Shown piece after piece: positions 45,958-49,356 of a stretch of 64,000 nucleotides of DNA (positions are counted from its first letter, which is position 1; each line of letters starts with the position of its first letter). The notes beneath the pieces were generated by a model, which was not told the DNA's origin, did not search any database, and worked only from the letters and a program-made list of their open reading frames with translations. A program made the translations under genes and the position numbers. Source of the DNA: Oscillospiraceae bacterium. Its GTDB lineage: Bacteria; Bacillota; Clostridia; Oscillospirales; Oscillospiraceae. The DNA lies in the NCBI GenBank assembly GCA_022846075.1, contig AP025582.1, positions 1 through 64,000 of the forward strand, given 5' to 3'.

Positions 45958-46025
45958 ATGGAAAGTTTGCTTGACATTTATGAAAAACGTGCTATGATGG
46001 GCCTATGGAAAGCAAACTTTCCATA
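45958..46025 (+). promoter_or_regulatory. Promoter and operator of the XRE/membrane-protein pair
   Basis: -35 TTGACA (45971-45976), 16-nt spacer, -10 TATGAT (45993-45998). A palindrome TATGGAAAG/CAAA/CTTTCCATA (46004-46025) covers the start site, and a half-site ATGGAAAGTTTGC (45958-45970) lies just upstream of the -35. Repressor bound at both would cover the promoter, so the pair is probably autoregulated by the XRE protein. Confidence 0.75.
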
Positions 46026-46040
46026 GAAAGGGGGTGCACC

Positions 46041-46244
46041 TTGAAAAACCGGTTGGAAGAGCTGCGCAAAAGCCGGGGGATCCGGCAGGAAGAGCTGGCC
46101 GCCGCGCTGGAGGTCTCCCGGCAGACCATCGGGTCCTTGGAAAACGGACGCTACAATCCCTCTATCCTGCTGGCCTTCAAGCTGGCCCGTTTTTTTGACG
46201 TGAGGATCGAGGACATCTTCATCTACGAGGAGGAAGACAAATGA
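46041..46244 (+). CDS. XRE-family HTH regulator (short YozG-type)
   Basis: A 67-residue protein that is one helix-turn-helix domain: LKNRLEELRKSRGIRQEELA, then AALEVSRQTIGSLENGRYNP, ending IEDIFIYEEED, typical of the short Cro/CI regulators in Firmicutes. The TTG at 46041 has GGGGGTG upstream and gives the usual length; an in-frame ATG at 46005 is at the expected transcription start. Its TGA overlaps the next gene (ATGA). A palindrome at its promoter is its likely operator. Confidence 0.88.
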   Translation: MKNRLEELRKSRGIRQEELAAALEVSRQTIGSLENGRYNPSILLAFKLARFFDVRIEDIFIYEEEDK

Positions 46245-46648
46245 AGGGGAAAAAGAATGGTTTTATCGCCGCCCTGGGCCTCCTGGTCCTGGCGCTGGGC
46301 CTGATCCTGATCACGCGGCTGGGGGTGGACGAGCCCCTGCCCTATGTGCTGGTAGGCCTGGGCTGCGGGGCCTTCGGCCAAGGGATGGGGGAGCTTCTGG
46401 CCCGCCGGGCGGCCAAGGGGGCGGCGCAGCAGATCGAGATCGAGCAGAAGGATGAGCGGAACGTGGCCATCGTCAGCCGGGCCAAGGCCAAGGCCTACGA
46501 CGTGATGCTCTATCTCTTCGGCGCGCTGATCCTGGCCCTGGGGCTCATGAAGCTCCCCGTGGCCGTTATCCTGCTGCTGGTGTCCGCCTACCTCTTCGTG
46601 TGCGGCAGCGCCGTCTATTACCGCCTGCGTTACGAAAAGGAGATGTGA
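46241..46648 (+). CDS. Membrane protein paired with an XRE regulator
   Basis: A 135-residue protein with four membrane segments (about 7-24, 33-48, 84-101 and 105-125) and a charged central loop (IEIEQKDERNVAI, near 66-78), a layout common in proteins encoded next to short XRE regulators in Firmicutes. Function unknown. Start ATG overlaps the regulator stop by 4 nt. Confidence 0.75.
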   Translation: MKGKKNGFIAALGLLVLALGLILITRLGVDEPLPYVLVGLGCGAFGQGMGELLARRAAKGAAQQIEIEQKDERNVAIVSRAKAKAYDVMLYLFGALILALGLMKLPVAVILLLVSAYLFVCGSAVYYRLRYEKEM

Positions 46649-46651
46649 GGG

Positions 46652-46963
46652 TCACGCCAGGTGCAGGAAAGCCCACACCGCCGCCAGGCTGACGGCGATC
46701 ACCGCCGCCGAGGCGCACAGCTCCAGGATCCCGGCCCACCGTTCCCGGCGGGGGCGGCGCTCCGGGGCCCGGGAGGCCTCCTCAGCTGGGCCGGCCTCCA
46801 ACCGCTCCAGGGCGGCTTTGGTCTCCAGCTTCCGGCGGCAGCGCTCAAAATCCAGCACCTCGCCCGCGGGGGCGGCCGCCGGGGCGGGGACGAAGGTGAC
46901 GAGGTCGGTCCCGCCGCTGACTTTGACCCGGCGGGCGTTGAGGCGGTAATAAGTGGTATCCAT
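46652..46963 (-). CDS. Small single-pass membrane protein behind SOS-like boxes
   Basis: A 103-residue protein with a soluble, charged N-terminal part (residues 1-77) and one C-terminal membrane segment (about 80-100), no signal peptide and no family recognised. GGAGGGAAC lies upstream of the ATG at 46963. Its promoter region has three LexA-box-like sites. In other bacteria small membrane proteins under LexA control (YneA, SidA, DivS) block cell division after DNA damage; a similar role here is only a guess from size, topology and promoter. Confidence 0.7.
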   Translation of the reverse strand: MDTTYYRLNARRVKVSGGTDLVTFVPAPAAAPAGEVLDFERCRRKLETKAALERLEAGPAEEASRAPERRPRRERWAGILELCASAAVIAVSLAAVWAFLHLA

Positions 46964-47046
46964 GGCAGTTCCCTCCTGTTTCCTGTGATGTCCCCAGTGT
47001 AACAAATAAAATGTCCCATAAGAGGGACTTTGCTGTTCAAACTCAA

Positions 47047-47109
47047 AAACAAATGTTCCTTAGAACAACTGTTCCTTTAGAATATACAACAACTGTTCGA
47101 TTCTGTCAA
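47047..47109 (-). promoter_or_regulatory. Promoter with three LexA/SOS-box-like sites
   Basis: Minus strand: -35 TTGACA (47109-47104), 17-nt spacer, -10 TATATT (47086-47081). GAAC-N4-GTTC, the core of the Gram-positive SOS box, is exact at 47063-47074, just after the -10, and matches 7 of 8 at 47087-47098 (inside the spacer) and 47047-47058 (in the leader). Bound repressor would cover the whole promoter. Confidence 0.7.
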
Positions 47110-47211
47110 GGGACCTTCCACAAAAATTTCTTTTTTGGGGAAACTTTTCCGATTTTTCTCCGTCTAAATGGGCAAATGGGCGGAAAATGCCCAAAAGGGA
47201 GGAAGAAAACT

Positions 47212-49356
47212 ATGAAAGTGCGCAGGATCGTGACTGCCGCCCTGGCGCTGGCCCTGGGAATGTCCCTGGGCGCCCCCGCCCTGGCGGCCGACGCCGCCGA
47301 CGCCCGGCTCACCAAAGTGACCCAGGCGGTAAAGGCCACGCTGTCCATTTCCGATGAGTACACTGAATTTTACGGTGAGCCCTCCGAGACCCCGCTGGGC
47401 ACGAAGTGGGGACTGGAGTGGGGCGGTGAGGACAAGGGCATCTCCGTCATCGCCGCAGACGACGGAAAGGTCCTCTCCATGAACACCTGGGAGAGCTCCG
47501 ACCAGCGGGAAAACGGCTTTGGCCCCAGCTTTCCCGCCATGACCCGGGCCCAGGCCCAGGAGAAGGCCCAGGCCTTCCTGGAGAAGGTCCTCACCAGCGG
47601 TGAGCGGGCCGTGTTTGACGAGGACGATTCCACCGCCGTCCTCTCCGCCGAGAGTTACAGCTTTCGGGGGAGCATCTTTCTGAACGGCCTGCCCTCCCCC
47701 CTGGGCTTCTATGCCCGCGTGCGGCTGTCCGACGGGGCGGTGATCAACTTCTGGCGGGACGATCCCTCCGAGTATGTGGGCACGGTGCCCGCCGCCGGCT
47801 CCAAGACCAGTCAGGCCCAGGCGGCCGCCCTGCTGAAGGGCACCCTGGCCCTCCGGCTGGAATATGTGCTGGACGAGGGCGGGGAGAAAGCGGTCCTCCG
47901 CTACCTGCCGGAGAACGGCCACGAGTTTTATGTGGATGACGCCGCCGGGAAGCTGGTGGACCTGACCGAGCTGCGAGAAAAGCTGGCCAAGAGCTACACC
48001 GGAGGGGCGGGCGGCTCTAATATGACTTACGCCACCGCCGAATCCGCCGCCATGGACCGAGGCGGCCTTACCGAGGCCGAGCTGGCCGGGGTGGCCAAGC
48101 TGGAGGGGGTCAAGACCCAGGAGGAGCTGGACAAGGCTGTCCGTGCCTGGAAGGAGCTGGGCCTCAGCGCCTACCAGCTCTCCGGCGCCACCTGGTCCGT
48201 GGACCGGGAGACCGGCGATGTGTCCGCCCGGCTGTCCTATGGCCGCAACACAGAGGCGGGCATCTACCGCCGGGCCGTGACCGTGGACGCCAAGACGGGT
48301 GCCCTCCTGTCCGTCAGCGGCTCCAATCCCGCCACCGACGCCCAGCCCAAGCTGACCGCGGACGCGGCCCAGGCCAAGGGCGAGGCCTTCCTGAAGGCCC
48401 TCTGGGGCGGGCAGTTCAGCAAGACCGAGCTCTATGACTCCACCGCCGCCGAGAAGGGCTCCGCCGCCCACTCCTTTACCTATGCCCAGAAGGTGAACGG
48501 CTACTTCTTCCCCGCCAACGCCATCACCGTCCGGGTGGACGCCGCCGACGGCACCATCCTGGGCCTGTTCCGGACCTTTGACGATGAAGTGTCCTTTGAC
48601 AGCGCCGAGGGCCTGATCTCCGCCGAGGCCGCTCTGGACGCCTGGGCGGCCAGCTTCCCCGTACCTCTGGCCTACCTGGAGGTGCCAGTGGAGCTGGACC
48701 TGTCCTGGCCCGAGGCCAAGCCCCTGCTGGACGCCGGGTACAGCTACTATAACGCCCTGAAGCTTGGCTACGGCCTGGGGGAGCAGGACGCCTGGTACAC
48801 CGGTGTGGACGCCAAGACCGGCGCGCTGGTCAAGGCCGGCGGAAGCGAAGGGCGGGGCCTGAGCTACGACGATCTGGCCGGCCACTGGTCCGAGGCTATC
48901 TTCAACCAGCTGGCCGAGTATGACGTGGGCTGGCAGGGCGGCCGGGCCGACCCCGACGGGGCCCTGACCCAGATGGCCTACGTGGCCCTTCTGGCCAGCG
49001 CCGACGGCTACCGCTTCGACCCCGCCGAGGACAAGGCCGACGACCTGTACAGCTACGCGTACAGCCGGGGCATCCTGGCCAAGGGGGAGCGGGAGGACGG
49101 AAAGGTCCTGACCCGTGCGGAGTGCGTCCGGCTGCTGCTGGACAGCGTGGGCTACGGCAGCGTAGCCAAGCTGCCGGGCATCTTCCGCTGTGACTTTGCC
49201 GACGCCGCCGCCATCCCGGCGGAGGACCTGGGCTATGCCGCCCTGGCCCAGGGGCTTGGGATCGTGGGCGGAGACGCCCAGGGCAATTTCGCCCCCGGCC
49301 GCTCCTGCACTCGTGGAGAGGCCGCGGCCATGCTGTGGCAGTATATGAAGCGGTAA
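47212..49356 (+). CDS. Secreted protein with PepSY/YcdB-like repeats and C-terminal SLH domains
   Basis: A 714-residue surface protein: signal peptide (MKVRRIVTAALALALGMSLG, then APALAA), several PepSY/YcdB-like repeats with the pattern SxxQAxxxAxxFL and VDAxTGxLL (about residues 95-560), and three SLH-like segments in the last 170 residues (YDDLAGHWSEAIFNQLAEY near 550-568 and two more ending FAPGRSCTRGEAAAMLWQYM). SLH domains bind pyruvylated cell-wall polymers, so it should be non-covalently wall-attached. Ligand and role are unknown. Terminator downstream. Confidence 0.85.
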   Translation: MKVRRIVTAALALALGMSLGAPALAADAADARLTKVTQAVKATLSISDEYTEFYGEPSETPLGTKWGLEWGGEDKGISVIAADDGKVLSMNTWESSDQRENGFGPSFPAMTRAQAQEKAQAFLEKVLTSGERAVFDEDDSTAVLSAESYSFRGSIFLNGLPSPLGFYARVRLSDGAVINFWRDDPSEYVGTVPAAGSKTSQAQAAALLKGTLALRLEYVLDEGGEKAVLRYLPENGHEFYVDDAAGKLVDLTELREKLAKSYTGGAGGSNMTYATAESAAMDRGGLTEAELAGVAKLEGVKTQEELDKAVRAWKELGLSAYQLSGATWSVDRETGDVSARLSYGRNTEAGIYRRAVTVDAKTGALLSVSGSNPATDAQPKLTADAAQAKGEAFLKALWGGQFSKTELYDSTAAEKGSAAHSFTYAQKVNGYFFPANAITVRVDAADGTILGLFRTFDDEVSFDSAEGLISAEAALDAWAASFPVPLAYLEVPVELDLSWPEAKPLLDAGYSYYNALKLGYGLGEQDAWYTGVDAKTGALVKAGGSEGRGLSYDDLAGHWSEAIFNQLAEYDVGWQGGRADPDGALTQMAYVALLASADGYRFDPAEDKADDLYSYAYSRGILAKGEREDGKVLTRAECVRLLLDSVGYGSVAKLPGIFRCDFADAAAIPAEDLGYAALAQGLGIVGGDAQGNFAPGRSCTRGEAAAMLWQYMKR

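Follow-up and report, generated by a model that had tools for sequence, protein, structure and literature searches.

A small membrane protein gene behind a conserved tandem SOS-box promoter is a candidate SOS checkpoint of the Oscillospiraceae

Results

A small membrane protein gene with three SOS boxes at its promoter

The window analyzed here is a stretch of 64,000 nucleotides from an Oscillospiraceae bacterium (GenBank assembly GCA_022846075.1, contig AP025582.1, positions 1 to 64,000). Its minus strand carries a gene for a 103-residue protein, the features of which are collected in Table 1. The first-pass annotation, which was made from the letters of the window, had described a product of this length with one membrane segment, preceded by one exact and two 7-of-8 matches to the box GAACN4GTTC. 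The reading frame, its one hydrophobic segment (near residues 79–101) and all three boxes were found as described. Only one promoter match, TTGACA-17-TATATT (P1), was found in the upstream region, and it lies on the minus strand. Box 1 occupies most of the P1 spacer and box 2 begins shortly after the -10 element, so that LexA bound there would block access of the polymerase. Box 3 has the same spacing in one relative (L024) and is missing from most homologues.

Table 1 Features of the small membrane protein gene and its upstream region (window coordinates)
Feature	Position	Strand	Remark
Coding sequence, 103 aa	46652..46963	-	ATG at 46963, stop 46652-46654; conserved start M[DE]T
C-terminal membrane helix, about residues 79-101	46661..46729	-	Follows an Arg-rich stretch; model (pLDDT about 97), predicted N-in, C-out
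Conserved motif GEVLDFERCRRKLE, predicted cytoplasmic	46823..46864	-	Predicted start of helix 39-56
Ribosome-binding site AGGAGGG	46971..46977	-	Read from sequence
P2 -10-like element TACACT	46996..47001	-	Exactly 11 nt after the palindrome
P2 palindrome GTCCCTCTTATGGGAC	47013..47028	-	
SOS box 3, GAACATTTGTTT	47047..47058	-	7/8
SOS box 2, GAACAGTTGTTC	47063..47074	-	Exact, 8/8; just downstream of -10
P1 -10 element TATATT	47081..47086	-	Promoter search; spacer 17
SOS box 1, GAACAGTTGTTG	47087..47098	-	7/8; inside the P1 spacer
P1 -35 element TTGACA	47104..47109	-	Promoter search

Counting of boxes over the window or the genome was rejected as evidence and given no weight, because the numbers are at or below chance: 14 matches with at most one mismatch in the whole window versus 22.6 expected, and 21 exact GAACN4GTTC sites genome-wide versus 26 for the reversed control. 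Among exact sites, GAACAGATGTTC at genome position 2167599 lies within a reading frame. Dinucleotide shuffling of the upstream region, repeated 5000 times, gave three boxes including an exact one just once. The clustering, the position and the conservation of the boxes are all above chance. The box observation is stronger than the first-pass annotation had claimed.

An XRE-type regulator gene (window 46005-46648, plus strand) is directly convergent with the SOS gene, and it overlaps a small membrane protein gene whose product is DUF6442-like at a score below the cut-off.

The promoter and the protein family are conserved together

A homologue search of 300 Oscillospiraceae genomes gave matches in 36, and 26 homologues passed inspection. 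Four first-pass matches (L040, L046, L048, and L049) were false, having neither the motif nor boxes. At least one upstream box was present in all 26 homologues, at least two in 25, and an exact box in 22, whereas only 1 of 243 control stretches (300 bp, taken from the same loci) contained at least two. The commonest distance between neighboring boxes was 24–25 bp.

A promoter-only query containing no protein information (GAACN4GTTGTATNNTN5-8GAACN4GTTY) was then run on 400 genomes. It matched 48 genomes, with one copy in each, and the reversed pattern matched none. Every one of the 30 loci examined precedes a member of the 103-residue protein family, and in all 30 promoters a TTG -35 element stands at a spacing of 17 or 18, with the boxes in register with the -35 and -10 elements. 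Two of these loci run off their contigs, L117 carries a frameshift, and the product of L118 has no membrane helix. Three members (L095, L096, and L123) are too divergent for BLAST and were recovered by the promoter pattern. A scan of named genomes with a smaller alignment gave nine named loci, and relatives were found in Pseudoflavonifractor, Flavonifractor, and Candidatus Galloscillospira. Of all the support for the box observation, this persistence across species is the strongest.

The genes that neighbor the family vary (YcdB/SLH, spoIIID, shikimate kinase, DEAD helicase) and there is no evident operon partner; hence, the SOS gene seems to be chromosomal and to stand alone.

The protein has a C-terminal helix and a conserved motif

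Searches of Pfam, NCBIfam, PHROGs, PADLOC, and PDB sequences returned no relatives of the 103-residue protein, the phage and plasmid records searched held no member of the family, and family-library searches found no known adaptor motif. The family is previously undescribed. Intact members have about 74 to 124 residues (most have 82-124), and most begin with M[EDQK]T. From N- to C-terminus they share the motif, in the family form G[KEN][VIL][VIL]D[FL]..[YC]R..L, a variable charged stretch, Arg-rich residues, and the hydrophobic C-terminal helix, the start of which has small residues and an acidic one that is conserved.

In an AlphaFold2 model built with 26 sequences, residues 13-26 form a weak hairpin, residues 39-56 a helix, and residues 73-102 a confident C-terminal helix. 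The pTM was only 0.32, and beyond a single helix the model has little more than loose parts. As the membrane helix is C-terminal and positive charges precede it, the positive-inside rule would place about 75 residues on the cytoplasmic side. We consider this tail-anchored, N-in topology probable.

The same box type is found at lexA, recA, and mraZ

The genome encodes one clear LexA (E = 2e-19). The first-pass annotation had proposed that the organism's own lexA promoter be inspected and had named recognition of a different box by this LexA as grounds for refutation. The evidence speaks against such a difference, as the lexA promoter has the same box type: GAACAGATGTTT, which runs into the -35 element TTGACA. 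Among relatives, GAACN4GTTT was present at the lexA promoter in 22 of 23. A further box, GAACATAAGTTC, lies upstream of the DUF1385-prmC-recA gene series (the recA operon), and GAACAAATGTTT lies upstream of mraZ at L199:13084 (genome 943084) in a 400 kb sample of the genome. The boxes at lexA, the recA operon, and mraZ together indicate that the Bacillus-type box is that of the Oscillospiraceae lineage. LexA binding at mraZ has been shown in gut metagenomic DNA by Cornish et al. (PMC3998124), and the mraZ box found here agrees with that link. The sharing of this box type with the cell's own lexA, plus retention of the boxes at orthologous promoters, strongly supports LexA control of the small gene, which on these sequence grounds is almost certainly a member of the regulon.

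If the contig is circular, the SOS gene (46963) and lexA (genome position about 3225900) are about 51 kb apart. In three genomes (G014, G200, and G046) the distance is about 6, 9, and 17 kb, respectively, on the same contig, with the genes not adjacent. Directly downstream of lexA lies a gene for an 88-residue protein with two hydrophobic stretches (L001:2120-2386, plus strand). It has no Pfam or NCBIfam match, and several relatives have similar sequences at their lexA loci.

The leader holds a further conserved element

A second element, P2, is located between P1 and the coding sequence, some 62-68 nt ahead of the ATG. It has the form GTCC-N8-GGAC (consensus GTCCGTTTTATGGGAC) and, at a constant distance of 11 nt, a -10-like TAnnCT. 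It is recognizable in about 30 of 46 leaders and missing from nearly all other sequence stretches checked. The window contains one copy (46996-47028, minus strand) where none was expected. A simple RNA hairpin was set aside as an explanation because of the fixed 11-nt spacing to the -10-like element. P2 resembles a promoter served by its own regulator rather than by LexA.

In 400 kb of the source genome there was one further copy (L196:16549-16581, minus strand), located in a prophage that has an integrase and an S24-type repressor. In 14 viral contigs (L213-L226), several copies were at XRE repressors, one was beside a divergent integrase, and others were at methyltransferases or an ImmA-like peptidase. 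One candidate for the P2 regulator is an S24-type RecA-cleavable repressor. The element is thus shared with temperate phages. Those of clostridia may use it at their repressor and early genes, a part of a two-input reading that we hold only tentatively.

No YneA-like small protein was found in the sampled Oscillospiraceae

A relaxed tandem-box pattern was applied to the rest of the class and matched 16 genomes besides the source genome. Six matches sit on a small helix-plus-LysM protein (YneA), mostly visibly beside lexA, and others are at recA, at dinB-type polymerases, and at a radical-SAM protein. At L168, in another family of the order, a tandem SOS-box promoter lies before a radical-SAM protein similar to enzymes of DNA repair or modification.

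With a YneA profile, a short YneA-like frame was found in 18 of 18 outgroup genomes (other clostridia), one being only partial. No YneA-like small protein was found in 27 genomes having the new family or in 35 other Oscillospiraceae genomes; the profile matches in these 62 genomes were LysM domains of long proteins only. No YneA was found beside lexA in the source genome or in 23 relatives, and the LysM proteins of the source genome have no SOS box of LexA type. On the simplest reading, the new family fills the YneA role. However, most of the sampled Oscillospiraceae genomes yielded no homologue at the thresholds used and likewise lack YneA, and thus YneA absence alone is no proof of replacement.

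Discussion

Oscillospiraceae are abundant gut bacteria, and our literature search found no paper joining the family with LexA. The single gene behind the conserved tandem LexA-box promoter offers a direct candidate for the checkpoint that is missing from the picture in these organisms. The best explanation of the data as a whole, which we judge somewhat likelier to be right than wrong, is an SOS checkpoint gene that LexA represses and that is specific to Oscillospiraceae. In undamaged cells LexA would sit on two or three boxes covering the core promoter and start region and thereby hold the gene tightly off. After DNA damage RecA triggers LexA self-cleavage. From this established LexA biology, loss of the repressor should result in strong induction of the gene. 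The product would be inserted by its C-terminal helix, with about 75 residues, including the conserved [VIL]DFxxYRRxL helix, predicted to be in the cytoplasm, and would most likely delay division by contacting a component of the divisome, via the membrane helix, from the cytoplasmic side, or both.

The division-inhibitor reading, which we infer from the regulation, from the size and lone membrane helix of the product, and from the lack of YneA, has in our estimate about an even chance. As put forward in the first-pass annotation, it is a reasonable prediction that has since gained in support. Like the SOS-induced small membrane division inhibitors, the 103-residue protein is small, has one membrane helix, and is encoded behind SOS boxes. 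A more elaborate version, in which a new SOS division-inhibitor family, restricted to Oscillospiraceae as far as searched and anchored at its C-terminus, acts from the cytoplasmic side, replaces YneA, and takes inputs from LexA at P1 and from a second regulator at P2, is offered as a speculative model that we think rather unlikely to hold in all its parts.

Three other explanations were weighed. The most serious is that the protein is a membrane effector which the SOS response induces for a purpose other than blocking division, either a tether or adaptor for a repair, proteolysis, or nucleoid factor or a sporulation checkpoint. A cytoplasmic location of the conserved part of the protein would suit a tether, and spoIIID is close by in several genera. 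The spoIIID gene, however, is adjacent only in part of the family and points in a different direction from the SOS gene. The other frequent neighbors encode shikimate kinase and a YcdB-domain protein, and the library searches found no known adaptor motif; we regard such an effector as possible but less likely than not. An SOS-induced membrane toxin of the TisB/DinQ kind, which would depolarize the membrane and lead to dormancy, seems improbable. LexA-regulated single-helix toxins do exist, DinQ being an example (PMC3567139), and the small size, the one membrane helix, and the tight LexA control are as expected of one, but the family is longer and has a conserved, charged, soluble N-terminal part, whereas type I toxins of this kind are very short hydrophobic peptides paired with an antisense RNA. 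Moreover, a search of the region around the gene turned up no known antitoxin RNA family, although an antisense RNA of a novel kind may exist there. Finally, that the boxes serve the divergent YcdB/SLH gene (47011-49356), the small gene being incidental, is scarcely credible despite the intergenic region common to both genes and the retention of this neighbor in several genera, since the sole promoter match is directed at the small gene, the boxes are kept where the YcdB gene is not the neighbor, and in all 30 promoters examined they are in register with the small gene's own -35 and -10 elements.

Returning to the division-inhibitor reading, the closest comparison is with YneA of Bacillus and clostridia, the target of which is FtsW (PMC13396833). 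Both proteins are small and have one membrane helix, yneA is LexA controlled, and the tandem-box promoter architecture is that of yneA in other clostridia. In YneA, however, the helix is N-terminal, the LysM domain is extracellular, and the gene lies beside lexA, whereas the 103-residue protein has a C-terminal helix and no LysM domain (no Pfam match) and its gene is not beside lexA. No sequence relationship of the two was found. Staphylococcus SosA is likewise SOS controlled and small, with a single membrane helix and no LysM domain. It differs in having 77 residues, a helix at residues 10-30, an extracellular C-terminal part, and a gene beside lexA (PMC6851548), whereas the helix of the 103-residue protein is C-terminal and the soluble part is predicted to be cytoplasmic. 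In the known Gram-positive inhibitors the helix is N-terminal and the C-terminal part extracellular, and their genes usually lie beside lexA (PMC6851548); the differing topology and gene location of the new family count against the division-inhibitor reading. With a layout reversed relative to YneA and SosA, the new protein could inhibit division only by way of its helix or from within the cytoplasm.

SOS inhibitors are as a rule unrelated to one another in sequence, YneA and the staphylococcal SosA being examples. SidA and DidA of Caulobacter are small, DNA damage-induced membrane division inhibitors that are unrelated in sequence to the others (PMC6851548, PMC4211646). They belong to a different lineage. 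Escherichia coli SulA is SOS induced and acts from the cytoplasm, on FtsZ (PMC13396833), but it is soluble and larger, and family searches showed no similarity to it. Bacteria have found several ways to stop division after DNA damage. Should the Oscillospiraceae protein block division and do so from the cytoplasmic side, it would add a further independent solution, one with the opposite topology.
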